Virus record (IMG/VR): IMGVR_UViG_3300006919_000183
Location: 1-35,099 of that record
From: a virus
Reading direction: 5' to 3' (one strand)
DNA length: 35,099 bases
A program made the translations under genes and the position numbers. The stretch's first letter is position 1, and each line of letters begins with the position of its first letter. Shown one piece after another: positions 5,724 through 33,133 of this stretch. Below the pieces are notes generated by a model. That model ran no database searches. It was given only the letters and a program-made list of their open reading frames with translations, and had not been told where the DNA came from.

Positions 5724-6037
5724 GTGATTATCAAGAACCTGATTGGGATGACCCTGAGACTTGGTACAGCGAAGGTTTTAAACAAATGCTAGAAGCAGAT
5801 GGTGTTAAACCAGAAGATGTTCAAGCCGCATATGGTCCCGACTACATCACTGCTATGGAAAATAGAATTCTATGGCGAGCATCACAGGTGATATCACAGC
5901 GACATGGTTGCAGGTGGGGTGAAATGATGAACACCAAACAAGGTCGGGAAATGGCATGTAATCTCTTTTGGGATTATTACTTTAATTCTGACATTGACTT
6001 AGATGTTGATGCTGGACGCACAGGTGAGTTACTGTAG
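5720..6037 (+). CDS. Small acidic phage protein, unknown
   Basis: 105 residues from the ATG at 5720, which is set by the ATGA overlap with the 34-aa membrane protein and an AGGAG site upstream; the frame is open further 5' but without a good start. The sequence is acidic at both ends (SDYQEPDWDDPETWY, DSDIDLDVDAG) with a helical tryptophan-containing middle. No motif recognised. Confidence 0.8.
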   Translation: MSDYQEPDWDDPETWYSEGFKQMLEADGVKPEDVQAAYGPDYITAMENRILWRASQVISQRHGCRWGEMMNTKQGREMACNLFWDYYFNSDIDLDVDAGRTGELL

Positions 6038-6041
6038 AGCT

Positions 6042-6197
6042 ATGACATTTGTTGCTGGTGATGAAACTGCAACTTTTGCAATCAGACTTTTAGATCAAGT
6101 GCAATATTATTTGAAGTCTAAAGGCAAAGATTTACTTGAGGTGCAGATTAAAAATAAAAACGGACATAAAGAAGTGTGGATTAAAAGGGGACGATAA
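6042..6197 (+). CDS. Small phage protein, unknown
   Basis: 51 residues from ATG 6042, four bases after the previous stop; an upstream in-frame start at 6003 would add 13 residues and overlap the previous gene by 35 nt. The protein is a helix followed by a basic beta-like C-terminus (LEVQIKNKNGHKEVWIKRGR). The last codons form the 5' arm of the terminator that closes the small-gene block. Confidence 0.65.
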   Translation: MTFVAGDETATFAIRLLDQVQYYLKSKGKDLLEVQIKNKNGHKEVWIKRGR

Positions 6198-6209
6198 TGT
6201 TCCCTTTTT
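6183..6209 (+). terminator. Intrinsic terminator ending the small-gene block
   Basis: AAAAGGGGAC (6183-6192), loop GATAAT, GTTCCCTTTT (6199-6208) with one G-T pair, then T to 6209. The stop codon of the upstream gene lies in the loop. A late promoter begins seven bases later, so it separates early-type and late-type transcription. Confidence 0.82.
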
Positions 6210-6215
6210 ACATTG

Positions 6216-6223
6216 TATAAATA
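6216..6223 (+). promoter_or_regulatory. T4-type late promoter (TATAAATA)
   Basis: Perfect match to the T4 late -10 octamer TATAAATA, which in T4 is read by RNA polymerase carrying the phage sigma factor gp55. It follows the terminator and lies 28 nt before the ATG at 6252. No -35 box is needed in this class. Confidence 0.75.
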
Positions 6224-6251
6224 GTTTTAGAATTAATTCAATGAGGCTAAA

Positions 6252-7130
6252 ATGAAATCTTTTAAGCACTTCACCGAACAAGCACTGCATGAAGAAGCAG
6301 AAGTTTTATTAGAAAAACTCATTACTTTTGGTGGTAAAGCATATCCTAAATTTGGTAATGTTGTAATCATGGCTGGCGGTGCTGGTTCTGGTAAAGGCTT
6401 TGTGCTTTCTAATCTTGTTGGGATAGAAGGTAAAGTATTTGATGTTGATGAGTTAAAGCAGTTAGCTGCTAAGTCCAGTGTAATCAATAAACGTGTTAAA
6501 GATGAATTTGGTGTTGATCTAAAAGATTTGGCAAGCAAATTAAAAGACCCCGATAATGTATCTAAACTACATGAAATTATTGGTGATGCTTTAGGTTTGC
6601 CTGACCGTCGAAGAGCAGCTTTCTTTGCATCTGTACTTTCTGCTGATCCTGACAGAAAGCCTAATATTGTTTTTGATGTAACTCTAAAAGACTTGCGTAA
6701 GCTTGAAAAGCTAACTCGCCAAGTAGATGCTTTGGGTTATCCTAAAAAGAATGTGCATATCGTCTGGGTTGTTAATGACATTGAAGTGGCATTAGATCAA
6801 AACCGTAAACGTGATCGCACAGTTCCTACAGAAATTTTGATTAACACTCATAGGGGTGTTTCTCAGACCATGAATGATATTGTTCGTATGGGCGCTGGCT
6901 TGAAGCGTTACATGGACGGTGAGATTGTATTTGCTTTCAATAAAGTGAAAGTTGATTCTGAGCTTGTTAAATCTGGCAGAGGTGGTCAGTATGTAAAAGA
7001 TGCTGATTACGTCTATGTCAAACGTGCCGGCAAAGCACCTACAGGTGTTGATAAGCTAGATAAGCAAATGTTAGCTAAAATTAAGTCATATGTACCTAAA
7101 AATGTTGATTGGGAAAACATCACCACATGA
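6252..7130 (+). CDS. Zeta-toxin-like P-loop kinase, candidate virion-internal protein
   Basis: 292 residues with a P-loop GGAGSGKG at residues 42-49 preceded by a hydrophobic strand (NVVIMA), then a strand ending KVFDVDELK, the pattern of zeta-toxin / UDP-sugar kinases. A second strand NIVFDVTLKD and KKNVHIVWVVND continue a Rossmann-like core, and the RxxR-type arginines RKRDRTVP may act as a lid. The N-terminus MKSFKHFTEQALHEEAEV resembles the short F-rich capsid-targeting tags of T4 internal proteins, and similar tags open several neighbours. It has its own late promoter. Likely role: a nucleotide-dependent phosphotransferase made late and perhaps packaged; substrate unknown. Similar proteins are usual in marine T4-like phages. 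Confidence 0.8.
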   Translation: MKSFKHFTEQALHEEAEVLLEKLITFGGKAYPKFGNVVIMAGGAGSGKGFVLSNLVGIEGKVFDVDELKQLAAKSSVINKRVKDEFGVDLKDLASKLKDPDNVSKLHEIIGDALGLPDRRRAAFFASVLSADPDRKPNIVFDVTLKDLRKLEKLTRQVDALGYPKKNVHIVWVVNDIEVALDQNRKRDRTVPTEILINTHRGVSQTMNDIVRMGAGLKRYMDGEIVFAFNKVKVDSELVKSGRGGQYVKDADYVYVKRAGKAPTGVDKLDKQMLAKIKSYVPKNVDWENITT

Positions 7131-8376: not shown

Positions 8377-10146
8377 ATGATTAATACTTTTAAAACATAT
8401 GTAAACGATCAAAACTCTATTGGCTATCTTGTATTTGATGAGTTCAATCCACCTTCGATTGCACATCAAACACTTATGGATGAAGCAGCAAAGTTTGGCA
8501 AAGACTATAAAATTTTTGCATCTCAGATTGTAGAGTCTAAGAACAATCCACTGAACTATCATTCTAAAATCAAATTTATGCGTAAAGTCTTTCCTAGACA
8601 TGCTCGCAATATTATTTTAGATACATCAGTGACTAATTTCTTAGAGTCTGCTGCATACATGTACAATCAGGGATATAAAAATCTTGTAGTTTTCTGTGAT
8701 GATGCACAGATGAGGTTACTTGAGCAGAATAATGGTGTAGAAGGTAATCATGGCTATTATAAATTCTATAGAATTAATCAAGAGCATCAAAACTCTATCA
8801 ATGAATCTACACAATTAGAAAGCGCTAGAAGTAATGACTTTGGTGCGTTCGCACAAAATCTTCCTGAGACAGTATCTAATTCATTAGCAAAAGAATTATT
8901 TAACGCTGTCCGTAAAGGATTAAACTTAGATGAGAGTTTAAAATTTACTAGACATGTTGAATTAGAGCCTGTTTCTGATAGACGTGAAGAGTATGTCAGT
9001 GGTGAATTATTCTATGCCGGTCAGCAAGTTATTATAAAAGAATCTGATGAAGTTGGTACAATTACTCATTGTGGCTCTAACTATGTTATTGTTGAGATGG
9101 ATGGCAGAAAAAAGCGCAAGTGGTTGACTGATGTAGAACCACTAGAAGAAAAAGTATCACAGTCTCAAATCAATGACTTAGAAAGATTTGCTGATAAGTT
9201 ACTTGCAAAGTACAGTATTGATATTGAGTTTACCAGACACTTTGTTGACAGAGTAAACGACGCTAGAAATAATCCTGAAATTAAAGTTGCTGAATTACAA
9301 AAGTTCTTTAAGAAGATTCATAAAGCAAAAGGCAACAAGATCAAATCAGTAGGTGATATGCAGGCTGTTCTCAAGGATGTTGAGAGAGACTTGAACATTC
9401 CTGCTGTACTGAAAGACAAGGGAGATGATTTCGAAGTGAGATTTAAAACAATCATGAGAAAAAAGAATTTCAAAACTCCTAACAAAGTAATTCAGTATGA
9501 ACAGAAAGTTGCACAAGACCCTGATGTAAAAGATAAGCCAGGAACACAGCCAAAGAAGTATTTTTCTGGTTTAGCAAAGTCTACTAAAGCAGCAAGAGAT
9601 ACGCACTTTAAAAAAGGTGCAAAGATGGATGATGATAATCCTGCTGCATATACTCCTGCTCCAGGTGATAAAGAAGGTAAAACTAAACCTTCAAAGCACA
9701 CAAAGAAATTTAAGCAGATGTATGGTGAAGCTGTATCTCCTGCACAGCAAGCAGCTATTGCAATTTCTAAAAAAGAACGTGGTGAAAAGCCAAAGAATGA
9801 AGGCAATGGTCTTTGGGCTAACATCAATAAGAAGCGCAAAGAAGGTCGACCAATGCGCAAGCCTGGATCAAAAGGTGCACCGACTGCACAAGACTTTAAG
9901 AATGCACGAGGCGAAAGCATTGAAGAGTCCAAGATCGAAGGTCTTGTAAAGAAAGCAGAGAAGTCTGGTATTTCTTATAGCATTCTAAAGCAAGTTTATA
10001 ATCGTGGCATGGCCGCATGGAGAACTGGGCATAGACCAGGCACAACTCCTCAGCAGTGGGCATTTGCTAGAGTGAATTCATTTATTACTGGTGGCAAAAC
10101 AAGAAGAACTGCTGACAAAGATTTATGGGCGAAAACGAAGAAGTAA
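8377..10146 (+). CDS. Multidomain protein: nucleotidyltransferase-like head plus phage-specific C-terminal modules
   Basis: 589 residues starting at the base after the previous stop. Residues about 14-135 form a cytidylyltransferase-like Rossmann domain: strand IGYLVFDEFNPPSIAH holds a variant HxGH motif (SIAH) and is followed by YKIFASQIVE and NLVVFCDD strands. Around 205-255 lies a beta module (AGQQVIIKESDEVGTITHCG) that resembles a KOW/SH3-like barrel. A helical segment (DIEFTRHFVDRVNDARN) follows. The C-terminus has two blocks familiar from marine T4-like phages: GLWANINKKRKEGRPMRKPG and the final GISYSILKQVYNRGMAAWRT with HRPGTTPQQWAFARVNSF. Whether the nucleotidyltransferase is active is unclear. 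Its late-region position suggests a virion-linked protein. Confidence 0.8.
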   Translation: MINTFKTYVNDQNSIGYLVFDEFNPPSIAHQTLMDEAAKFGKDYKIFASQIVESKNNPLNYHSKIKFMRKVFPRHARNIILDTSVTNFLESAAYMYNQGYKNLVVFCDDAQMRLLEQNNGVEGNHGYYKFYRINQEHQNSINESTQLESARSNDFGAFAQNLPETVSNSLAKELFNAVRKGLNLDESLKFTRHVELEPVSDRREEYVSGELFYAGQQVIIKESDEVGTITHCGSNYVIVEMDGRKKRKWLTDVEPLEEKVSQSQINDLERFADKLLAKYSIDIEFTRHFVDRVNDARNNPEIKVAELQKFFKKIHKAKGNKIKSVGDMQAVLKDVERDLNIPAVLKDKGDDFEVRFKTIMRKKNFKTPNKVIQYEQKVAQDPDVKDKPGTQPKKYFSGLAKSTKAARDTHFKKGAKMDDDNPAAYTPAPGDKEGKTKPSKHTKKFKQMYGEAVSPAQQAAIAISKKERGEKPKNEGNGLWANINKKRKEGRPMRKPGSKGAPTAQDFKNARGESIEESKIEGLVKKAEKSGISYSILKQVYNRGMAAWRTGHRPGTTPQQWAFARVNSFITGGKTRRTADKDLWAKTKK

Positions 10147-10970
10147 TTAATATTCCTCTAACCAGGCATAATTGTGGGCTTGGTAATCTGCTTTACAGAG
10201 GAATAAACTTACTCCATGATTATGCTAATCTATTATCAATTGATGATTTAAAATGTAATCTGTATTGGAATCATTACAAAACAGACAGTGTTGTTCCTGA
10301 ACATTTTGAGGATGAAGAAACTTCTATTGATGTATTCAATTACTTACATGAAAGAGTTGTTACAGAAACAAAAATTAATTTTAAACATATAATTAATGAT
10401 AGCAAAGAGTTTGTTGTAATAGATGATTTGAAGTATCTGTATGAAAATAAAAAATCCTTTGTTAAGCTATACAATCCACACAAAACAAAAAAGAATAAAA
10501 TTTGTTTTTGGGGCTTGGATAAAAACTTCACAAGTACAGATGCCAGCGGCGGTGAGTTAATTCATAATAACTGGCGACATCAGACATATGATGACTGGAT
10601 TAGAATTAGAGAATTTCTAAATCAATACTATGAAGTTATTGAATTAAGCTATCGTCTTCCTATCAGAGAAGTTTATTATCATATTTGTACTTCTGAATTT
10701 ACTGTAGGATATGCAGGAGCATTTCATGCGCTAAGTGTGTTGCTGAGAAAGCCCAATATCTCTATAGTTGGATTAAACAATAAGTTATATCCAGATACAA
10801 TGTCAGATGTAAAGAAAAATAATAAGAAGATAAAAAAAGGGCATACTGAAATATATTCTTATGAAGCGTTATGGTACAATGACACTGTAGACGATATTTG
10901 TAATTTAGATAATTTAAACCACTATAAAAAAATAGCCTTTGATAATATTGAAATGCTTAAATCTTTATAA
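10125..10970 (+). CDS. Glycosyltransferase-like protein, paralog A of three
   Basis: 281 residues. The strand KKNKICFWGLDKN and the block VIELSYRLPIREVYYHICTS then EFTVGYAGAFHALSV are shared with the genes at 28240 and 29943. The block resembles the C-terminal nucleotide-sugar site of GT-B enzymes of the GT9/fucosyltransferase type ('..sEf.iGy.Gg..H.a'), so a glycosyltransferase is the best guess; a donor cannot be named. It begins within the last seven codons of the multidomain gene. Its position amid late structural genes, 17 kb from the glycan cluster, is odd and suggests duplication and movement. Codon use is more AT-rich than the flanking structural genes. Confidence 0.6.
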   Translation: MGENEEVINIPLTRHNCGLGNLLYRGINLLHDYANLLSIDDLKCNLYWNHYKTDSVVPEHFEDEETSIDVFNYLHERVVTETKINFKHIINDSKEFVVIDDLKYLYENKKSFVKLYNPHKTKKNKICFWGLDKNFTSTDASGGELIHNNWRHQTYDDWIRIREFLNQYYEVIELSYRLPIREVYYHICTSEFTVGYAGAFHALSVLLRKPNISIVGLNNKLYPDTMSDVKKNNKKIKKGHTEIYSYEALWYNDTVDDICNLDNLNHYKKIAFDNIEMLKSL

Positions 10971-18664: not shown

Positions 18665-19369
18665 ATGATTGGAATTTATTCTTTTCCAAGTTCAGGAAGA
18701 ACTTGGTTAAAAATTATGTTAGACGATCTTGAGGTTGATAGTCTCATAGATCATGGCCGAAGAGCAGAAGGAATCTACACTCCAAGTCAGCAGATGTTGT
18801 GTGCAACTCCATTTGTCTACTTGATAAGGAATCCATACGATACATTCATTTCTCAGTATCAAAAAAGTTCTAGTAAATGGAAATATAAAACCCATCCACT
18901 AGTTGAATTAGCCAGAGTGAGATTAGATGAATTTGTCTACGGTAATACCAGAAAACATAAGCAATATTTAAGCAATGGTAAAACTCTGGATTTATATGTA
19001 AATCTTTTTGAAGATATTTTGATACATCATATATCGGCATTAAAATATGTAGTGGCTAGTGATTTTATTTTATTACGTTATGAAGATTTGATTGGTAAAA
19101 ATGGAATAAATGAGTTTCATAAAATTGTGCCTCATGTCAATAGAAGTAAAATAGAAAAAGTGTGGCACGATAATACTTTAGAAAAGCTAGTGCAAAAGAG
19201 CGAGAATAAAGAATTTTTTGATAAATATAAGCTAGAAAAAAAGTTTCATGGAGGTGCCTCAAGATATAGAGATTTTCTAACAGAAGAGCATCTATCACAT
19301 TTTAGCAAACTTATAGATAAACATGACTATGAAAACAAAATGAAAGAGCTATACGATGTGGTATCATGA
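18665..19369 (+). CDS. Sulfotransferase-like protein (PAPS-binding)
   Basis: 234 residues. The N-terminus IYSFPSSGRTWLKIML is the 5'-phosphosulfate loop of sulfotransferases (usual form YPKSGTTWL). The 3'-phosphate site RNPYDTFISQY follows, then LLRYEDLI and a C-terminal GGASRYRDFLTEEHLSHFSK, the last matching the 'G..g.Wr..ls.e....f' end of the family. It would move sulfate from PAPS to a sugar or other hydroxyl. The start is fixed by the loop position, although it begins on the base after a terminator T-tract. The next gene overlaps its end. Together with the glycosyltransferases it suggests glycan decoration. The catalytic basic residue after SS is replaced (SSG-R-T), so activity is not certain. 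Confidence 0.78.
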   Translation: MIGIYSFPSSGRTWLKIMLDDLEVDSLIDHGRRAEGIYTPSQQMLCATPFVYLIRNPYDTFISQYQKSSSKWKYKTHPLVELARVRLDEFVYGNTRKHKQYLSNGKTLDLYVNLFEDILIHHISALKYVVASDFILLRYEDLIGKNGINEFHKIVPHVNRSKIEKVWHDNTLEKLVQKSENKEFFDKYKLEKKFHGGASRYRDFLTEEHLSHFSKLIDKHDYENKMKELYDVVS

Positions 19370-20248: not shown

Positions 20249-20413
20249 ATGGTTTCTCAACTCGAAAGACTTAGAAAAGATTACCGTGAACTCAAGCACT
20301 ATGAATACAAAATGAATAAACAGGGTCGAACAGAGGTAGTCAAAAAACTACAGTTAAAACGAGATTTCTTGGGAAAGTCAATAAATGCATTAGAGGAGCA
20401 ATTAGCAGCTTGA
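20249..20413 (+). CDS. 54-aa coiled-coil protein
   Basis: ATG 20249 with AAGGA (20236-20240) at good spacing, stop TGA 20411-20413. The product is charged and helical with heptad-like leucines (QLERLRKDYRELKHYEY, then VVKKLQLKRDFLGKSINALE). It overlaps the -35 box of the next promoter through its stop codon. No family recognised; the ribosome site and composition support a real gene. Confidence 0.7.
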   Translation: MVSQLERLRKDYRELKHYEYKMNKQGRTEVVKKLQLKRDFLGKSINALEEQLAA

Positions 20414-23094: not shown

Positions 23095-23622
23095 ATGAAA
23101 GACTTAATTGTTATTGATGACTTTTTGCCCGAAGAGGAGCATCATGCTATCTATGAACGTCTGATGACAAGAGAGTGGCATCCCACAAATGATCATCCTG
23201 ACGATCCTCTTTCTGATATTTCTGGATATAACTCCGCTGAAGAGTTTACAGGTCCATCAACTCAGACAATTATGGATTATTGTCTAGAGTATGACTTTCT
23301 CAGAGACATTGTACAAAATAGTCACAGAGTTTCACTTTACAATAAGTATGATCCAAAGACCCCTACTTATTTTCATACTGATGGAATGAGTGGGCATACA
23401 CTAATTTATTTTCCAGACATTGCTGAGTATAATTTTATGATGTCTGGAGAAACACAGATTCTAATTGATGATCAGATTGTAGGTGTTCTGCCTATACCAA
23501 ACAGGCTAGTTGTATTTAATGGGCAGCTTTGGCATAAAGGCACTTCATTTACACATGATCAACCCAGATACTCTTTCGCAATTCAATTTAGAGATACAAA
23601 AGATGCCAGTATACACGATTAA
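23095..23622 (+). CDS. 2OG-Fe(II) oxygenase (prolyl-4-hydroxylase-like)
   Basis: 175 residues. The iron ligands are visible as H94-x-D96 (TYFHTDGMSGHTLIYF) and H147 (GQLWHKGTSF), and the 2OG-binding arginine as R158 (QPRYSFAIQFR), all in the spacing of the small P4H-type phage dioxygenases. The N-terminus IVIDDFLPEEEHHAIYERLM is the usual opening of this family. It hydroxylates an unknown substrate. It starts 18 nt after tRNA-Thr, and the next gene starts inside its end. Confidence 0.85.
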   Translation: MKDLIVIDDFLPEEEHHAIYERLMTREWHPTNDHPDDPLSDISGYNSAEEFTGPSTQTIMDYCLEYDFLRDIVQNSHRVSLYNKYDPKTPTYFHTDGMSGHTLIYFPDIAEYNFMMSGETQILIDDQIVGVLPIPNRLVVFNGQLWHKGTSFTHDQPRYSFAIQFRDTKDASIHD

Positions 23623-23836
23623 AGACGATTCAAAAGATGAATACTTTGAAGTCATGATGCCATATGAAGAGTTTAAAAAATTCATGCAGGCAAATCCAGA
23701 GTATAGTCAGATATTTAAAATGCCAGCAACTGTGTCAGGTAGATATTCTGCTCATAGAATGGCAGGTGGTGAATGGCAAGATGTACTCAAAAAAGTGAAA
23801 CGAGCTTCTGGGAAAGATAATTCAATTAATGTCTAG
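23603..23836 (+). CDS. Small FmdB-like protein lacking zinc cysteines
   Basis: 77 residues from ATG 23603, chosen because MPVYTIKDDSKDEYFEVMMP matches the opening of phage FmdB-like proteins (MPtYef.....e.fe..m), with the ending GEWQDVLKKVKRASGKDN matching 'gF.evL.ki...np.s'. The zinc-ribbon cysteines of bacterial FmdB are absent, as I recall for phage versions. It overlaps the oxygenase gene by 20 nt and phoH by 8 nt. Function unknown. Confidence 0.75.
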   Translation: MPVYTIKDDSKDEYFEVMMPYEEFKKFMQANPEYSQIFKMPATVSGRYSAHRMAGGEWQDVLKKVKRASGKDNSINV

Positions 23837-24533
23837 CAAAAAGCAAGTGCGAAAAATGAATGCAATGAAACTGAGACTGGACGATCTTCCAGAAATTGAG
23901 CCAATTACAAAAAATCAAGAAAAGGCCTTTAATCTTTTTGAAGAAGGTAATAATCTTGTTTTGTCTGGCTCAGCCGGCACAGGTAAAACGTTTATGGCTC
24001 TTTATCTTGCTCTTGAAGAGGTGCTAGAAAAGGAGACTGAGTATGATAATATTGTACTCATTCGCTCTGCTGTAGCGACAAGAGAGCAAGGCTTTCAGCC
24101 AGGCACAAAAGAAGAAAAAGAAAATGTATTTACTTTACCATACCGATCTATCTGTAGCGAGCTTTTTGGTGTAGCAGACGCATGGAATAAACTCAAGCAG
24201 ACAGGTACTATTCAGTTCGAAACTACCTCATATATCCGAGGGACTACATTCAATAACTCAGTTGTTATTATTGATGAGATGCAGAATTTAAACTTTCATG
24301 AGCTAGATTCTGTTGTCACCCGTATTGGTAGAAACTGTAGGCTGATTGCTTGTGGTGATTACTATCAGTCCGACTTTGACAAAGACAAAGAAAAGAATGG
24401 TGTTCTACAGTTTATGAATATTGTAGATCATATGAAAGACTTTGAGATTGTTGAATTTGGATGGGCAGATATTGTCCGCTCTGGATTTGTCCGTGATTAT
24501 ATCATGACAAAAGAAATGTTGAACATTAGATAA
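23829..24533 (+). CDS. phoH: PhoH-like P-loop ATPase
   Basis: 234 residues. Walker A GSAGTGKT follows NNLVLS, Walker B VVIIDEMQN follows, and LIACGDYYQSD is the sensor segment; IVLIRSAVATREQGFQPGTK is the PhoH-specific block. phoH is among the most widespread auxiliary genes of marine phages, in phosphate-starvation regulons in E. coli but with an unsettled role (RNA-related activity is suggested by homologs with RNA-binding domains). The length is typical of the phage form. It overlaps the previous gene and is followed by a new promoter. Confidence 0.95.
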   Translation: MSSKKQVRKMNAMKLRLDDLPEIEPITKNQEKAFNLFEEGNNLVLSGSAGTGKTFMALYLALEEVLEKETEYDNIVLIRSAVATREQGFQPGTKEEKENVFTLPYRSICSELFGVADAWNKLKQTGTIQFETTSYIRGTTFNNSVVIIDEMQNLNFHELDSVVTRIGRNCRLIACGDYYQSDFDKDKEKNGVLQFMNIVDHMKDFEIVEFGWADIVRSGFVRDYIMTKEMLNIR

Positions 24534-24536
24534 TGA

Positions 24537-24565
24537 TTGACATATATATTAATCCAATCTATAAT
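24537..24565 (+). promoter_or_regulatory. Perfect consensus sigma70 promoter P6
   Basis: TTGACA (24537-24542), 17-nt spacer, TATAAT (24560-24565). The start at 24603 is 37 nt downstream. No other clear promoter is seen up to the right end, so it may drive the whole ParB-like/glycan run. Confidence 0.78.
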
Positions 24566-24602: not shown

Positions 24603-24776
24603 ATGGCTAAGTTTTCTCGGTTTGATCCTCGGAACAAAAAGAATGGTCGTCACAAAAAGATGTCCAAAGAGGCAGTCGATACTAAAGGTAAAATGACAGG
24701 TAAAAGTTATTTTGATGAAGAAAACGAAAAGTACATGAAAAAGTATCGAAAATACATCGAAGATGAACTCTATTGA
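24603..24776 (+). CDS. 57-aa very basic protein, unknown
   Basis: 57 residues from ATG 24603; an upstream TTG in frame lies in the promoter and is rejected. The sequence (MAKFSRFDPRNKKNGRHKKM, then acidic/basic helix EENEKYMKKYRKYIEDEL) is charged. It is the first gene after P6 and overlaps the next start by 14 nt. No family recognised. Confidence 0.72.
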   Translation: MAKFSRFDPRNKKNGRHKKMSKEAVDTKGKMTGKSYFDEENEKYMKKYRKYIEDELY

Positions 24777-25590
24777 ACACGCTAAAGGGCATAAAGACAA
24801 GCCCCTTGATAAAATTAATGGAGTCGGTTTTTATAAGCTGATAGAACAATCTTTACGACAGGACTATTCTGATCTTATAGAAGATGGTTTCAAACGTGCA
24901 ACGGCACATAATTTTACGCCACAGCTGGCAAATAGAAACTATGGTGCTGGCTCTATTAGTGAACTACCTAAAGATATAAAATTTTCATATGATAGCCCTA
25001 GTAATGATCCTATAAAATATAGAGATACTTACTTAACTCATATGCGATACTTTTCTACAACTTATGTTGTGTGTGAGAATTATCTCAGAGACGGCAAATT
25101 TGAAAATCCTATCACTCTGTTTTTTGATGGCTTTGATACATATGAAATTATAGCAGGAACACATAGATGTTTGTTGTTCAGATGCTTAGAAGATGTAAAG
25201 ATACAAGCAAATATTTTTTATCTTCATGGCTTTGAGCCTAAAGACCTTGATCTTTCTGAGCCTTATCCTTTTGAAGTATACTTTGAGAATAATATAAAAA
25301 ACTTTTATAGATTTAATCCAGTACCGACAGTCTATGAAGATTTTAACTATCAGTATTTGCATGATCTTTTAGAATTTATTGAGTCATTAAAAGATATGCC
25401 ACAACTTCATTTTTATTGTGGTGATAGTTTTATGTTTCAATCTCCCAGCAGAAGCAAAGACATATATAGAGTGAATCTGTATCCTGGCGAAACATATAAA
25501 CTTGGCTTAATGCAATTTGTACTAGACTACTTTTTTGGTATTACTGATTTTAGGAATAAAAAATTTTATGATTATGGGAAAGCATCATGA
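24763..25590 (+). CDS. ParB/sulfiredoxin-fold-like protein, tandem paralog 1
   Basis: 275 residues. Residues 113-135 hold the ParB-like core: FENPITLFFDGF, then a strand and IIAGTHRCLLFRCL, where GTHR (132-135) corresponds to the G-x-R/HR nucleotide-loop of ParB/Srx folds, followed by VKIQANIF. The C-terminus (LHFYCGDSFMFQSPS, then LMQFVLDYFFGITDF) is shared with the next two genes. A ParB-like CTPase or nuclease activity is possible but not shown. It is the member with the most intact motif. It starts within the 57-aa gene and its end overlaps the next start. Confidence 0.65.
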   Translation: MNSIEHAKGHKDKPLDKINGVGFYKLIEQSLRQDYSDLIEDGFKRATAHNFTPQLANRNYGAGSISELPKDIKFSYDSPSNDPIKYRDTYLTHMRYFSTTYVVCENYLRDGKFENPITLFFDGFDTYEIIAGTHRCLLFRCLEDVKIQANIFYLHGFEPKDLDLSEPYPFEVYFENNIKNFYRFNPVPTVYEDFNYQYLHDLLEFIESLKDMPQLHFYCGDSFMFQSPSRSKDIYRVNLYPGETYKLGLMQFVLDYFFGITDFRNKKFYDYGKAS

Positions 25591-26473
25591 GTATGTTGAT
25601 GACGTGGATTATAGAGACATGATTCGTGTCAATTGGGATTCATTTGTATTAACTCCCTCTGCAACAGAAACGCATAAAAAGCTACTGCATGAAAATAGTG
25701 ATCTTCCTTATCGACCACTTACTGAAAAATCAAGTGACGCAACTTCTGATATTTACAATCATGTTATAGGATATAAAGAAAACTTTCCTATTGATCGTGT
25801 TAATATGGATACCGAGTCTGCATTACAACATGTGTTTAATTTTAAGTTGGAATATAGCAGAGTGCTTTCTGCAATTATTCGTAAAATAGCTACTTTATAT
25901 TCTTTGCATGATGCTATCTTAAAATATGGTAAATTCAATGATCCTACAATAATACTTTATGATGAGCCTAAAAATAACTTTCATGTCTGTTTAGGACAAC
26001 AAAGATATTACTATACGAAAATTATGGGTGGAAAAATTGATGCTATTGTATATTCACTTGGCGCAGCCGCAGCTAAAAAAATAGAAGACCAAATTGGTGA
26101 AGTGAATTGGAACTGGACAACATTTGAGGATCAATTCATTTTTAGATTAGTCAATAGAAGTCATGCAGAATTTTTTAAATCTCATTTAATGTTATCCTCT
26201 GCATATGATCCAAGTAGAGACGAAATTATGAAAGAGCATTCTGAAAATGTCTTAGATTTTATTGGTCTCTTTATGGAATTTGGTGAAGAGTGGTATTTTT
26301 ATACAGATGATGATACTTACTTGTGTTTAATACCTAATGAATACGCAAAGAAAAAAGTTAAGATCAAAATAAAAGATGAATTTGGATTTATTCAGTTTGC
26401 TCTATGGAAAATTTGTGATATTCCTGTGTCAGATTTCATAATGGATAAGAGATTCGAAGTTGGGCACTTTTGA
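25568..26473 (+). CDS. ParB-like protein, tandem paralog 2
   Basis: 301 residues from ATG 25568; a TTG at 25535 and an ATG at 25574 are alternatives. The core aligns with paralog 1: FNDPTIILYDEP (from 123), then VCLGQQRYYYTKIM, with GQQR (143-146) where paralog 1 has GTHR, then KIDAIVYS. The C-terminus WYFYTDDDTYLCLIP and FIQFALWKICDIPVSDF again matches. The N-terminal 100 residues are specific to this copy. The loss of the His in the loop suggests altered chemistry or a binding-only role. Confidence 0.6.
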   Translation: MIMGKHHEYVDDVDYRDMIRVNWDSFVLTPSATETHKKLLHENSDLPYRPLTEKSSDATSDIYNHVIGYKENFPIDRVNMDTESALQHVFNFKLEYSRVLSAIIRKIATLYSLHDAILKYGKFNDPTIILYDEPKNNFHVCLGQQRYYYTKIMGGKIDAIVYSLGAAAAKKIEDQIGEVNWNWTTFEDQFIFRLVNRSHAEFFKSHLMLSSAYDPSRDEIMKEHSENVLDFIGLFMEFGEEWYFYTDDDTYLCLIPNEYAKKKVKIKIKDEFGFIQFALWKICDIPVSDFIMDKRFEVGHF

Positions 26474-26483
26474 CAAATATGAA

Positions 26484-27233
26484 ATGTCTACTTTACATAG
26501 TTCTTCTATTGCAGATAAAATAGGAGAAAATAAGAGACTATTTCTACATGACTCACCGGAATTTAAAGATAGACAATTTACAGTTAAAGTTTGGAAAACA
26601 ACTGTAGATAAAAATTGGACATGCGATAATCTAAAATTAGAAGTGGTGAACACAGACCATATATGGAGAAGAGCATCAGCACTATATTCGTTGTTTATGC
26701 AACTCTCAGAACACACTCAGAAGTTTGCTGAGCCTATAACAATATTTCGACGTAATGAAAAATATTATGTTGAAACTGGCTTACAAAGGTATACTCTCAA
26801 CAAAATATTATCATCTATTGAATTAGAAGCATACATTGTTGATACTGATGCTGTTTGTACGAATACCAGTGATATTACTCAACACTTTCATAAAGCTGAA
26901 ATTGTAAATAATCTAGACATACGACTTGAGCAGTCAAATGACTGGCAAAACGGTGAGGCTTGTTACCAATATGTTTTAACACCAAAGTTTATGAATGATG
27001 AATTGGCTAATGAGCATAGTACACTCAGACTAGAGTTTGCGTCTCTGATAAACAACTTTGGAAATTCATTGACATTTTGGTATAAAGACTGTATAGTAGG
27101 TAAAATGAGTAATGGTAAATCTATGCTAAACATTCAGATAGATAGTCTTGAGGGTTTAGCGCAGTTTATTTTAGAATATTTCTGTGACTATAATGATTTT
27201 TGTATTGAAAGACAGTATAGGATAATAAAATGA
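26484..27233 (+). CDS. ParB-like protein, tandem paralog 3
   Basis: 249 residues from ATG 26484; a TTG at 26460 with a better-placed AAGAG site would add 8 residues. The core FAEPITIFRRNE (from 81), YYVETGLQRYTLNKIL with GLQR (99-102), and IELEAYIV aligns with the two preceding genes at almost the same spacing. The C-terminus LTFWYKDCIVGKMSNG and LAQFILEYFCDYNDF completes the match. The stop overlaps the cupin start as ATGA. Function unknown. Confidence 0.6.
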   Translation: MSTLHSSSIADKIGENKRLFLHDSPEFKDRQFTVKVWKTTVDKNWTCDNLKLEVVNTDHIWRRASALYSLFMQLSEHTQKFAEPITIFRRNEKYYVETGLQRYTLNKILSSIELEAYIVDTDAVCTNTSDITQHFHKAEIVNNLDIRLEQSNDWQNGEACYQYVLTPKFMNDELANEHSTLRLEFASLINNFGNSLTFWYKDCIVGKMSNGKSMLNIQIDSLEGLAQFILEYFCDYNDFCIERQYRIIK

Positions 27234-27574
27234 TTGCAGGTAAAGTATGGGGCTCAACCGAACTGATTGAGGCCAATGGTGCTTTAGAGTTTCATCGCAT
27301 CACAACTAAGAAAGGTGGTGTATGCTCCAAGCATAAACATGAGTTTAAGTGGAACGGCTTTTATGTAGAGTCTGGTTATCTGCTTATCCGTGTTTGGCAA
27401 AACGACTATGATCTAGTAGATGAAACTATTGTCGGTCCCGGTGAATGGACTAAGGTAAAGCCTGGTGTCTATCACCAGTTTGAATGTCTTGAAGACTGCG
27501 TGGCTTTTGAGGTATATTGGGCAGAGTTTAACCATAATGATATTGTTAGAGAGACTGTAGGTTATGCAACGTAA
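27230..27574 (+). CDS. Cupin-domain protein
   Basis: 114 residues folding as one cupin: motif 1 KHKHEFKWNGFYVESGYLLI (G..H.H....e..yv..G), motif 2 VGPGEWTKVKPGVYHQFECL (PG....i.pg..H.f). The metal-binding histidines and a glutamate are present. Small cupins of this type often act as sugar isomerases/epimerases or as binding proteins in sugar-nucleotide clusters. It overlaps the nuclease gene after it and the third ParB-like gene before it. Confidence 0.8.
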   Translation: MIAGKVWGSTELIEANGALEFHRITTKKGGVCSKHKHEFKWNGFYVESGYLLIRVWQNDYDLVDETIVGPGEWTKVKPGVYHQFECLEDCVAFEVYWAEFNHNDIVRETVGYAT

Positions 27575-28239: not shown

Positions 28240-29019
28240 ATGAATGTTATTAACTTGCCCTCTAGAATGATTATGGGCACTTTGATAAGACAAATTTGTA
28301 ACACAGTATTTTACAAATATTCCCAAGACTTTTCAGATTCAATGATTATTAATATTTTTTTATTGGATTCGTCCGTGAAGAAATATAATCATTTTGAAGA
28401 TGTTGAGTCTTGGGAAGAAAAAACAAGATACTTATTAAATATGCTTGATATGAACTGTAAATTGCAGATTAATCATTCTATATCATACTATAAATCTTCA
28501 GAAGTAAAAAAAGCCAAAGAAAATGTAATTCACAATACAAATATTCCTTTACAGTTTAAAACTTTTACTGCAAAAAAGAAGAATAAAATATGTTTTTGGC
28601 GATACGATAAAAACAATCTTTCGTACATAAGAAAAGATGTGATGGCTCATGAAGTCTACGGTAAACATCATATATACACACAAGAAGAGTGGTGCAAACT
28701 TTACGAATACTTAAATTTGAGATTTGATGTAGTTGAATTGGAATATAGAACTCCTATCAGAGAAGTTTACTATCATCTTTCTACTTCCGAGTTTTGTATT
28801 GGATATGGAGGAATGTATCACAATCTCTGCACAAGTTTAAATGTGCCGTTTATATCACTATTAAATACAAAATATTACACTGAAGAACATTTAAAACTAT
28901 CAAATCCAAAAGAATATCATTGCAATCCAACCATACAAGAAATTACAAATGATTTGTATTTTGATTGTTTAATTGATAATGCTAGAATTGCATTAGGAGA
29001 TCATAATAATGCTAGTTGA
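28240..29019 (+). CDS. Glycosyltransferase-like protein, paralog B of three
   Basis: 259 residues. KKKNKICFWRYDKNN, then VVELEYRTPIREVYYHLSTS and EFCIGYGGMYHNLCTSLN match the genes at 10125 and 29943, and FISLLN closes the block. The pattern fits a GT-B C-terminal domain of the GT9/fucosyltransferase type. It opens the glycan cluster proper, one base after the nuclease gene, with its end overlapping the radical SAM gene. Its His in GMYHNL is kept, as in paralog A. Confidence 0.62.
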   Translation: MNVINLPSRMIMGTLIRQICNTVFYKYSQDFSDSMIINIFLLDSSVKKYNHFEDVESWEEKTRYLLNMLDMNCKLQINHSISYYKSSEVKKAKENVIHNTNIPLQFKTFTAKKKNKICFWRYDKNNLSYIRKDVMAHEVYGKHHIYTQEEWCKLYEYLNLRFDVVELEYRTPIREVYYHLSTSEFCIGYGGMYHNLCTSLNVPFISLLNTKYYTEEHLKLSNPKEYHCNPTIQEITNDLYFDCLIDNARIALGDHNNAS

Positions 29020-29965
29020 TCGTGCTGTCATTGAAATTAATGGTGGCTGTAATTATTCATGTCAGATGTGTCCACAGTCTCAACCAGGCGGCAGAGGTAA
29101 AAACTGGCTGAAGAAGATGTCTTTGGGTAGGTTTGAAAGTATTATTGATCAGTTGGTTAATAATGGACTGCGAGTTGTTAACCTTGAGGGCAGTGGTGAA
29201 CCCACCCTCAATAGTAACCTTGATGAATATGTAAGAATTGTGAAGAGACATGGAGCAAAGGCTTTTATGTTCTCTAACGGTAATCGCATGCATGGCGACT
29301 TCATGAAACGAGTTGTAGACGCTGGGTCAGACTTCTTTCGCTTCTCAATTATTGGCTACAGCCCTGAGACTTATTGGGCATGGATGAATTCAAAAGAGTT
29401 TACAAAAGTTATTAATAATCTTGAAGCTATGCAGAGATATGTTGAAGACTCAGGTTCAGACTGTACCGTTGCGACATATCATCTTGTTATGGATAATGAC
29501 AATGTTGATTATGAAGTCGAGCAATATCGCAAGATCGTTGATAATGCTGGAGTGAAGACTGAAATCTGGAAGATGCATAACTGGTCAGGCGTATATGAGC
29601 CAGAGTATGGTCGAGAGGGTAAAGTAAAAACTTGTGGTAGACCATTCTCCCCAGACTTAGTTATCCGAGCAGGCGGCGCTGTTGGTAAATGGGGCGCTGT
29701 ACATCCTTGTTGTCAGGTTCTCGGTAGAGATGATGACGCCATCCTTGGACATATGTCGGATAATACAGCAGAAGAAATCTGGAATGGTCACGCATACGAG
29801 CAGCTAAGGAAGCAACATACTACAGGAAATTATCCTGACTTTTGTAAAGGTTGCGATTTTTTGATTGATGATCCAGAAGTACTTGTTTACACAAATCATG
29901 AAAGAGACTTGTATAAGATGCATGGCACGGACTTTGATTTAAATGATTATCGTAAATTCAAATAA
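29009..29965 (+). CDS. Radical SAM/SPASM protein
   Basis: 318 residues. The N-terminus GGCNYSCQMCPQ carries the radical SAM CxxxCxxC cluster (C14, C18, C21). LEGSGEPTLN is the conserved 'GGEP' motif, and AFMFSNGNR the following strand. The C-terminal region resembles a SPASM domain with extra Fe-S cysteines: VHPCCQVLGRDD, ILGHMSDNTAEEIWNGHAY and FCKGCDF. It would use S-adenosylmethionine for a radical reaction on a sugar, peptide or other target. An AGGAGA site precedes the ATG. In phage glycan clusters this is unusual. It could act in sugar dehydration or C-C chemistry, which is inference from neighbours only. Confidence 0.88.
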   Translation: MLVDRAVIEINGGCNYSCQMCPQSQPGGRGKNWLKKMSLGRFESIIDQLVNNGLRVVNLEGSGEPTLNSNLDEYVRIVKRHGAKAFMFSNGNRMHGDFMKRVVDAGSDFFRFSIIGYSPETYWAWMNSKEFTKVINNLEAMQRYVEDSGSDCTVATYHLVMDNDNVDYEVEQYRKIVDNAGVKTEIWKMHNWSGVYEPEYGREGKVKTCGRPFSPDLVIRAGGAVGKWGAVHPCCQVLGRDDDAILGHMSDNTAEEIWNGHAYEQLRKQHTTGNYPDFCKGCDFLIDDPEVLVYTNHERDLYKMHGTDFDLNDYRKFK

Positions 29966-30800
29966 AATTGAAGTGTCTCTCTGTGAGGCAAGCTACTTTG
30001 AAGCGATTGGGGTTCTTTCCTATAGTTATTATCTCGCAAGATATAATGAAATGGACTTATTTGTTGATGTCTTTTGGTCAAGCCATTATGTAGATAATAA
30101 CTTTTATTTTAATAATTGGGATGAGACTGAATCTTTCTTGGATAAATTTAACTATTTACATTCAATGATAGAACTAAAATCAAAAGTAAGTGTTAAATTT
30201 AATCATATAATAATTGATGATTTTGATGAATACTTAAAAAGAAAAAAGCAGTTTAATGATGATTGTATTAGCATCAATGAGATTGTAAAAGTAAAGGGTG
30301 TGGATAAACGCTCTCTTCTTTGGCCACTAAAAAATCATTTAGATAGAGACCCTAAAAAAATTGTATTTTGGAAAACAACATTTGTGCATTCAATGATGGG
30401 AACATCAAATGATGTTATATGGGTTACTGATGGTAGAGAGACCGACGAATTATATAGCTACACCGAATGGAATAAAATCAAAGAAAATCTGAAAATGTTA
30501 GATTATAATGTTATTGAAGTTGAATATAGAACACCAATAAGAGAGCTTTATTATCATTTGGCCACTAGTGAATTTGCGTTTGGATATAATGGATTATGTC
30601 AATCAGTTGGTATTTCTTTAGGCACACCGACTATATTAACTAATTGGAAAAAAAGTTCTAACTTAAACTACGATCATCTTTTACCAAAAGTTTCTGTTGA
30701 CATGTTTAAAGATAAAAGATATATAGATCAGAATGTACAAATTGCAAAAGAAAAGATTTCTAAATTCAGAGATTTTTATGTGAATTTTTTTGGAGAATAA
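29943..30800 (+). CDS. Glycosyltransferase-like protein, paralog C of three
   Basis: 285 residues. KKIVFWKTTFVHS, VIEVEYRTPIRELYYHLATS and EFAFGYNGLCQSVGISLGTP align with paralogs A and B, but the His after the glycine motif is replaced (GLCQSV). The N-terminal half is divergent. It overlaps the radical SAM gene by 23 nt, so both are made together. Likely a GT-B-type transferase with a different donor or acceptor; an inactive copy is also possible because of the His change. Confidence 0.6.
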   Translation: MIIVNSNKIEVSLCEASYFEAIGVLSYSYYLARYNEMDLFVDVFWSSHYVDNNFYFNNWDETESFLDKFNYLHSMIELKSKVSVKFNHIIIDDFDEYLKRKKQFNDDCISINEIVKVKGVDKRSLLWPLKNHLDRDPKKIVFWKTTFVHSMMGTSNDVIWVTDGRETDELYSYTEWNKIKENLKMLDYNVIEVEYRTPIRELYYHLATSEFAFGYNGLCQSVGISLGTPTILTNWKKSSNLNYDHLLPKVSVDMFKDKRYIDQNVQIAKEKISKFRDFYVNFFGE

Positions 30801-31587: not shown

Positions 31588-32360
31588 AAAGATTAATCTA
31601 TCAGGTTTCAGTAGGTAAACCATCTAAACTCTACAAGCACTGTATTAATTCAGTTTCAGAATATTGTGACAAGCATGATATTGAACATTATGTTTTGACT
31701 AAACCTAAACTGAGAATTAATCCAAATCCATTTACATCTAATCGTTCTGATGGTGCTTCTCGACTGGGCTACTTGCCTATTTACGAAAAAGAAAATGCAT
31801 TTGATCTTTTACCAAAGTATGATCAGATTGCTGTGATTGATTCTGATATTTACATTAGACCAGACAGTGCAAATATCTTTGATGATTTTGGTACAGACCA
31901 TCCATTCGGTGCAGTCTGTGAACGTGAAATGCCCATCAATAAGAAATATGCTGCAAAGATTCGTAACTACTCAAATATGCAGTATCACAATTTGCATGGT
32001 AAACGTGGACTAGATTTTAAACCAAATAATTTGGGCTATGAGTTTTATAACATGGGACTTATGCTGCTGAATCAATCCTTTTACGAGTATGTCAACATGC
32101 CTGCAAAAGATTGGATGGCTAAGGTAGAGTTTGAGCCATTTGTGGACGGTGTTGGTGCATGGAAATGGTCTACTGATCAGACATTACTAAACTACTTTAT
32201 GAAGTCCCGTAGTGTGAACGTTAAGCATATGGACTGGAAATGGAATGGACTGTTTACAGCTAACACTAAAATTTCAGAGTGCCATTTTGTACACTTCTTT
32301 TTGAAAGATAAGTTACCTGATCGTGGTGAGAATGTCGAAGAACTTATGAGGCAAATTTAA
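31584..32360 (+). CDS. GT8-like glycosyltransferase 1
   Basis: 258 residues. LIYQVSVGKPSKLYKHC opens a GT-A fold, with the metal-binding DxD in IAVIDSDIYIRPDS (D86, D88) and the GT8-type block YEFYNMGLMLLNQS in the middle, plus WSTDQTLLNYF near the acceptor side and CHFVHFFLK at the end with the usual late histidine. It is a probable sugar transferase with an unknown donor. It overlaps the dehydrogenase by 4 nt and the fusion gene after it by one base. It starts MKRLIYQV, like the genes at 34251 and 35074. Confidence 0.75.
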   Translation: MKRLIYQVSVGKPSKLYKHCINSVSEYCDKHDIEHYVLTKPKLRINPNPFTSNRSDGASRLGYLPIYEKENAFDLLPKYDQIAVIDSDIYIRPDSANIFDDFGTDHPFGAVCEREMPINKKYAAKIRNYSNMQYHNLHGKRGLDFKPNNLGYEFYNMGLMLLNQSFYEYVNMPAKDWMAKVEFEPFVDGVGAWKWSTDQTLLNYFMKSRSVNVKHMDWKWNGLFTANTKISECHFVHFFLKDKLPDRGENVEELMRQI

Positions 32361-33133
32361 TGAGTGATATTATTGTAGTATTTACGGGTGGATTTGATCC
32401 TATTCATTCTGGTCATATTGATGTTATCAAAGAAGCTTCAGACATTGGCCGAGTTGTGATCGGACTTAATTCTGATGAATGGCTGTCTAGAAAAAAGGGC
32501 AGACCATTTATGTCTTTTAATGAGCGAGCAGAAGTACTCCGTCAGTTCAGAAAAGTTGCTATGGTTATGGACTTTGATGACTCTGATGATACTGCTATTA
32601 ATGCTATTGAAAAGGCAAAAGATTTCTTTGGCTCTGCTGACAAAATTGTTTTTGTAAATGGTGGAGATAGAACTTCAGAGAATACACCTGAAATGGAAGC
32701 GTTCAAAGATGATCCTAAAGTAGAATTTTTATATGGTGTAGGTGGTACGAACAAAAAAAATTCTTCAAGTTGGATTCTTGATAGTTGGAAAACTCAGAAG
32801 ACAGAACGTGATTGGGGCTACTGGCGTGTTCTTGATGACAAGGGTACAGTAAAAGTAAAAGAGCTTGTGATTAATCCCGGTGAGTCTCTGAGTGATCAAA
32901 GACACTTCTATAGATCAGAACATTGGTATGTTGTAAAAGGAAGAGTTGAAATCGAAACAGAGGTACTTGATCCACATACAAAAACTACTTTTGTGCTAAA
33001 TTCTCATACGACTAAAGTAATTACAGCAAGAACTTGGCATAAAGCAACTAATACTGGCAGTGTGCCTGCTCATATTATTGAAATTCAATATGGACAAAAA
33101 TGTGTCGAAGATGACATTGAAAGGCGTGATTGA
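32360..33133 (+). CDS. Nucleotidyltransferase-cupin fusion (sugar nucleotide activation)
   Basis: 257 residues. Residues 1-140: a cytidylyl/adenylyltransferase domain with GGFDPIHSGH (10-19), VIGLNSDEWLSRKKGRPFMS and the SSSWIL segment (135-140), the T/SSTxI-type signature, as in RfaE/HldE C-terminal and TagD enzymes. Residues 150-250: a cupin with WGYWRVLDD, RHFYRSEHWYVVKGRVEIE and TWHKATN, like the C-terminal half of type II mannose-6-phosphate isomerases. The fusion suggests it activates a sugar phosphate while the cupin isomerises or binds the sugar. Similar two-part proteins occur in phage sugar clusters as far as I recall, but this pairing is not standard. Confidence 0.8.
   Translation: MSDIIVVFTGGFDPIHSGHIDVIKEASDIGRVVIGLNSDEWLSRKKGRPFMSFNERAEVLRQFRKVAMVMDFDDSDDTAINAIEKAKDFFGSADKIVFVNGGDRTSENTPEMEAFKDDPKVEFLYGVGGTNKKNSSSWILDSWKTQKTERDWGYWRVLDDKGTVKVKELVINPGESLSDQRHFYRSEHWYVVKGRVEIETEVLDPHTKTTFVLNSHTTKVITARTWHKATNTGSVPAHIIEIQYGQKCVEDDIERRD

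Follow-up and report, generated by a model that had tools for sequence, protein, structure and literature searches.

Three consecutive genes near phoH in a marine phage raise the questions of whether they form one family, whether that family belongs with ParB, a nucleotide-binding protein with a role in chromosome segregation, and what the phage uses them for. We analyzed the whole virus record, a stretch of 35,099 bases (the window) from a marine T4-superfamily phage that encodes UvsX, a DnaB-like helicase, thymidylate synthase, ribonucleotide reductase, and PhoH. The closest helicase matches were in Phage C48C1 (65.7%) and cyanophages. All records compared were fragments of uncultured phages.

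Gene organization and common ancestry of p1, p2, and p3

ORF calls agreed with the three consecutive plus-strand genes that the original prediction had placed at 24763-27233, and the GTHR, GQQR, and GLQR loops and C-terminal motifs that it had assigned to them were found (p1, p2, and p3; Table 1). These genes lie in the region flanked by phoH and a PD-(D/E)XK exonuclease gene, but not directly after phoH as had been claimed, because a conserved small ORF intervenes. The reading frames overlap by 17 bp (p1/p2) and 14 bp (p2/p3), and the ortholog of p3 likewise lacks an early ATG. Since p1, p2, and p3 are tightly packed on one strand, their co-transcription is plausible, as inferred from strand and spacing. 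At the candidate promoter upstream of the small ORF, the closest relative retained TTGACA and matched the consensus at 10/12 positions. A second perfect (12/12) sigma70 consensus, TTGACA-17-TATAAT, was observed near 20410 of the window.

Table 1. Coordinates of p1, p2, p3, and neighboring features in the window
Feature	Coordinates	Strand	Description
2OG-Fe(II) oxygenase-like	23095..23622	+	175 aa; HxD...H...R in four phages; co-occurs with the p1-p3 family
phoH	23829-24533		Upstream of p1-p3
sigma70 consensus TTGACA-17-TATAAT	24537..24565	+	12/12 match, between phoH and small ORF; candidate promoter
Small ORF	24603..24776	+	MAKFSRFDPRNKKNGR...; between phoH and p1; kept in relatives with and without the p1-p3 family
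p1	24763..25590	+	275 aa; GTHR loop at residues 132-135; C-terminal QFVLDYFFGITDF; probable ParB/Srx-fold family member
p2	25574..26473	+	About 299 aa; start ATG at 25574 or 25568; GQQR loop; C-terminal QFALWKICDIPVSDF; family member
p3	26460..27233	+	257 aa; TTG start; GLQR loop at residues 107-110; C-terminal QFILEYFCDYNDF; family member
Cupin (WbuC-like)	27230..27574	+	Family genes on one or both flanks in other phages
Radical SAM/SPASM	29009..29965	+	Orthologs (77-91%) in family-bearing phages; 64-73% homologs also without the family

The three products are only 16-25% identical to one another. We detected similarity between p2 and p3 by blastp (E 1.4e-7), a weak pairwise similarity between p1 and p3, and a nonsignificant one between p1 and p2 (z 2.4). 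A homolog from another phage, L006a, bridged the gap, with z scores of 12.9 to p1 and 9.2 to p3. Furthermore, a profile-profile comparison of p1-like with p2/p3-like sequences aligned 158 columns, which include the GxxR region as well as the C-terminal motif, at 96.3% probability (E 1.9e-9) and a score of 69, against a maximum of 18 for shuffled columns. Judged by these comparisons, p1, p2, and p3 share a common ancestry and constitute one family, which upholds the claim that they are paralogs. Values of dN/dS relative to orthologs were 0.11 for p1, 0.21 for p2, and 0.12 for p3, showing that all three are real genes under purifying selection.

In a phylogenetic tree, p3 clustered with the second gene of a two-copy phage (84/90), although branches were long and other groupings unsure; thus, this paralog split predates the phages that we compared. 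Identity of p3 to its ortholog was 57%. Relative to the sister phage, dS was saturated in p3 and the cupin gene and not in p1, p2, or the exonuclease gene, which points to replacement of p3 and cupin as one block by recombination. The dS values over this stretch (window 26460-27574 versus L002:8881-10170) were 2.4 for p3 and 1.7 for cupin, with 0.35-0.6 in flanking genes. We also considered p3 as a fast-evolving gene, but its 57% identity accompanies the saturated dS that it has in common with cupin, and a swapped DNA block fits better.

Predicted ParB/Srx fold and the GxxR loop

Searches of p1, p2, and p3 against Pfam, PHROGs, NCBIfam, and PADLOC gave no confident family, all nine family members gave no credible Pfam family, and PF02195, the N-terminal CTPase domain of ParB and Noc, had 0 matches in 17 records. 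Weak POC1, DBP10CT, and DUF2358 matches of p1-p3 lacked support. Matches of the domain profile to RTT106 were judged to be due to chance, because the alignment falls outside the GxxR part.

Structure prediction, which the original prediction had proposed as a check, gave AlphaFold2 models of moderate confidence, built on nine sequences, for p3 (pLDDT 72.6, pTM 0.71) and p1 (pLDDT 65.4, pTM 0.71) that both match ParB/Srx proteins. Residues 43-128 of the p3 model form a beta-alpha-beta-beta-alpha-beta unit in the same order as ParB/Srx. The ten best Foldseek matches of p3 in the PDB were all ParB, PadC, Srx, or Noc, and its top viral match in BFVD was annotated as "ParB/Sulfiredoxin" (E 4.8e-3, probability 0.94). 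The separate p1 model had SbnI, PadC, SerK, Srx, Noc, and other ParB-like proteins as its first 12 PDB matches. E values across these matches were 0.08-0.4 for the PDB and 0.005 for BFVD, with TM-scores of about 0.2-0.35. When the family profile was searched against PDB sequences, Noc was the only chain listed, with GxxR aligned to GERR (E 0.36), and the domain profile matched SbnI (E 0.84). HHalign comparison of the family profile with ten annotated phage ParBs gave a score of 29.1 (probability 14%) in the correct register; 100 column shuffles scored no higher than 14.0 (0/100 reached 29.1), and seven other families of the neighborhood reached at most 17.5.

Each of these links is weak, but both models point the same way in the PDB and in BFVD, as does the sequence search, and agreement of this kind is unlikely to arise by chance. 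We therefore consider it very probable, from modeling and weak homology, that the p1-p3 family has the ParB/Srx fold that had been proposed for it; for p2, the predicted fold follows from homology to p1 and p3. The strand said to be common to the three proteins is present, but its N-P-I/T-I form did not hold: the pattern is x-P-[IT]-[TI] (ENPITLF, NDPTIIL, and AEPITIF), with N-P in p1 alone.

Likeness to ParB and Noc extends over the strand-GxxR-helix-strand core, which is in register (PITLF...GTHR...IQANIF in the family versus PIVIR...GERR...IPAIVR), and includes the invariant Arg and the top PDB and BFVD fold matches. In contrast to ParB and Noc, the family lacks a PF02195 match, an HTH, the C-terminal dimer domain, an annotated ParA neighbor, and recognizable Box I and Box III motifs, the other nucleotide motifs of ParB, and has a C-terminal domain of its own. 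In the p3 model, residues 180-256 form an alpha-beta-beta-beta-alpha-beta unit (pLDDT about 90 and above) with the motif G..QF.L...FCD..DF. A search of this domain against the PDB by sequence returned no relatives, and it occupies the place of the HTH of ParB. We found no ParA gene among the annotated neighbors on this 35-kb fragment. Because no ParA gene was seen nearby, the HTH is absent, and PF02195 is negative, p1-p3 are most likely not partition proteins. Sulfiredoxin is another Foldseek fold match (about 100 aligned columns), and p1 has its GxHR-type loop. However, sulfiredoxin is a protein of about 110 aa, as opposed to about 270 aa in two domains, and the catalytic Cys of its GCHR loop was found in none of the family loops (GTHR, GQQR, GLQR, GLHR, GTQR, SFTR in L006a, and GFSR in L009a).

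The Arg of GxxR is the sole invariant residue of the domain among nine members (9/9), and Gly is present in 8/9, with S in L006a. A decay from an intact to a His-less loop had been suggested, but the canonical ParB loop is itself GERR, and H and Q are exchanged between orthologs. Since r3, the ortholog of p3, has GLHR where p3 has GLQR, the His does not mark a lineage. In ParB-like proteins that have been tested, replacement of the Arg at the GxxR position by Ala abolishes NTP binding (PMC12704722). The conservation of this residue, together with that effect, supports a nucleotide site in the family. NTP specificity within the ParB-CTPase fold could not be read from sequence in a 2025 survey, and 17/28 purified ParB-like proteins had no detected NTP binding (PMC12704722). 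With S in the loop of L006a and Box I and Box III unrecognizable, some members of the family may have lost nucleotide binding.

Distribution of the family and its candidate partner genes

We surveyed the best 80 loci per scan of at least 599 candidate stretches. A backbone of phoH, the small ORF, cupin, and the exonuclease gene was common to the eleven distinct phages found; family genes fill the slot beside cupin in 4/11, and 7/11 have none. The window and IMGVR_UViG_3300011258_000860 carry three copies each. In 3300030406_004894, and likewise in its near-copy 3300030116_003627, cupin is flanked by a family gene on either side, giving two copies; 3300006793_000238 has a single copy. Phages G003, without the family, and G009, with two copies, have identical PhoH proteins, indicating recent gain or loss, so that these genes come and go. 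The family thus consists of accessory genes with a copy number of 0-3 in one slot, in line with the proposal of a phage module.

No homolog was detected by tblastn of p1, p2, L006a, L006b, and p3 in 50,697 phage records, and searches of genome contigs with p1 and p2 gave no match. Searches with subfamily alignments yielded no contigs beyond those already found, and 22 related records held no further copies elsewhere. Weak HMM matches preceding the radical SAM gene in L072, L028, and L023 appeared by eye to be glycosyltransferase-like or methyltransferase-like and were not counted as members. An ORF in a glycan gene cluster (L004:12334-12675) has a ParB-like stretch, VPVNPDGHVANGGHRLAAALYHQRPINV, and is Pfam negative. 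Tandem pairs of annotated ParB-like genes occur in Staphylococcus phage EW and Klebsiella phage pJN2-26, so that, contrary to the claim of an undescribed arrangement, tandem copies as such have precedents, although our searches found no other triplet.

The strictest partner that we found is the 2OG-Fe(II) oxygenase gene, which co-occurs with the family: it was present in 4/4 family-bearing phages and in 0/81 other phoH loci, some of which are the same contig counted twice. Since the gene lies <2 kb from the family, the co-occurrence may partly reflect physical linkage. Its PHROG name, DNA endonuclease V, looks wrong because HxD...H...R is intact. Orthologs of the radical SAM/SPASM gene (77-91% outside the window) were likewise present in 4/4 family-bearing phages and in 0/7 family-less backbone phages, some of them short fragments; as an exclusive partner it was rejected, because 64-73% homologs are present in other family-less phages. 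This gene matched no curated NCBIfam family at the cutoff; it weakly resembled tungsten-cofactor maturases as well as prokaryotic viperins (PADLOC pVip, E 8e-10). Three glycosyltransferase-like paralogs with the motif YRTPI.E..YH..T.E...Y.G lie at 10125-10970, 28240-29019, and 29943-30800; one adjoins the radical SAM gene, with a similar pairing in L020, L038, L055, L072, and L076.

Sugar genes near p1-p3 encode a cupin, a UDP-glucose dehydrogenase, a GT8 protein, and a nucleotidyltransferase/isomerase fusion, and these genes adjoin with or without the family and therefore tell little about its role. The link to glycan enzymes made in the original prediction, including a transcript common to both, is thus one of position, and the strictest partner is no sugar enzyme. 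The fusion gene (32360-33133) combines a cytidylyltransferase-like (rfaE-type) domain with a C-terminal cupin domain of mannose-6-phosphate isomerase. Other observations in the window include a sulfotransferase-like gene at 18665-19369 (PF00685, E 2e-5), in a phage that also carries several sugar genes, and a zeta-toxin/kinase-like match at 6252-7130 (PF06414, E 1.4e-6; phrog_5268, function not known). Upstream of phoH, the phage G002 carries heme oxygenase and ferredoxin-dependent bilin reductase genes (L210:5289-5870 and 5833-6510, by Pfam); the pair was seen by eye also in G003, G007, G008, and G010 and partly in G006 and G009. In the window, this position is instead occupied by tRNA genes and short ORFs.

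Possible functions of the family

The reading that we prefer, with about an even chance of being right, is that p1-p3 are nucleotide-binding accessory proteins, and not partition proteins, in which the C-terminal domain would choose a target and the GxxR site would gate or power action on it. Each protein would begin with a flexible N terminus, followed by a ParB/sulfiredoxin-fold domain that has diverged, and where ParB has its HTH and dimer domains it would have a C-terminal domain specific to the family. NTP would be bound via the GxxR loop, and its binding would gate or power action on a partner or substrate recognized by the variable C-terminal domain, so that the paralogs would differ in target and share chemistry. 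They may serve as accessory proteins early in infection, in host takeover or modification. The rapid divergence of these genes, their patchy copy number, and a promoter-like site of their own would fit a role in host takeover or conflict, and the conservation of little but the Arg would argue against a metabolic enzyme.

A DNA-directed role, in which p1-p3 would be NTP-regulated nickases, DNA-binding proteins, or anti-restriction factors, comparable to P1 DdrB, Osa, and other ParB-fold DNases, is unlikely. Many phage ParB/Srx domains are tied to DNase or antidefense roles (PMC5512222), p1-p3 lie between phoH and an exonuclease gene, and a conflict role would suit their divergence and patchy copy number. 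However, phoH and the exonuclease gene are equally present without the family, no methylase partner was seen alongside, PADLOC gave no match, and neither an HTH nor another recognizable DNA-binding domain is present. The orphan ParB/Srx proteins of other phages (DdrB-like, ParB-DUF3850, and CPMG_00194 of cyanophage MED4-213) resemble the family in their ParB-type fold and lack of ParA but differ in C-terminal domains and neighbors and are usually single copy, and we found no sequence relative among them. CPMG_00194, a BFVD fold match assigned by protein length, is also PF02195 negative but was rejected as an ortholog because it lies in another genomic place, with a replication module and methylase as neighbors.

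Small-molecule kinases of the SerK/SbnI type, phosphorylating a metabolite (an amino acid or sugar) for the cupin, UDP-glucose dehydrogenase, and glycosyltransferase encoded nearby, are also unlikely. The free-serine kinases SerK and SbnI combine the ParB/Srx fold with a C-terminal extension, and SbnI and the SerK homolog 1vk1 are the best PDB fold matches of p1; SbnI is among the domain profile matches, the neighborhood contains the sugar genes, and TK0378, annotated as ParB, is a true ADP-dependent serine kinase (PMC5120207). These are, however, a siderophore-cluster protein (SbnI) and an archaeal one (SerK) as opposed to a phage family that has no conserved catalytic residues beyond the Arg, which is unusual in a catalytic family. 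Moreover, p3 matches ParB, PadC, and Noc foremost, the seven backbone phages that lack the family include several with sugar genes, and three nearly unrelated kinases in one pathway are hard to explain.

It is improbable that p1-p3 are degenerate ParB-fold scaffolds or decoys that bind no nucleotide and act as an interaction platform, for example for the oxygenase: the SFTR and GFSR loops, the loss of Box I and Box III, the low paralog identity, the strict co-occurrence, and the many ParB-like proteins that bind no NTP in vitro (PMC12704722) would fit, but the phosphate-binding Arg persists in 9/9 members though the rest of the domain has mostly changed, and dN/dS is low.

An extension of our preferred reading, and a long shot, is that several diverged ParB/Srx-fold proteins with new C-terminal domains would join the 2OG-Fe(II) oxygenase as nucleotide-gated subunits and, with it, modify a target of the host or of the phage. 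If true, this would be a nucleotide-controlled modification module, distinct from the roles of the fold in partition, in kinases, or in nucleases.

The ParB/Srx fold was recently shown to be an NTP-binding module of general use, and phages encode many orphan versions of it whose use is not known (PMC12704722). Orphan phage ParB/Srx proteins and tandem pairs were thus known already, and what is new is a subfamily that had escaped detection, carrying a C-terminal domain of its own and as many as three copies in tandem. The family adds a predicted ParB/Srx version that domain libraries have missed, with 0-3 copies and a candidate partner gene. Copy-number variation, the candidate partner, and a single conserved Arg make its role testable, with the family-less phages as natural controls.
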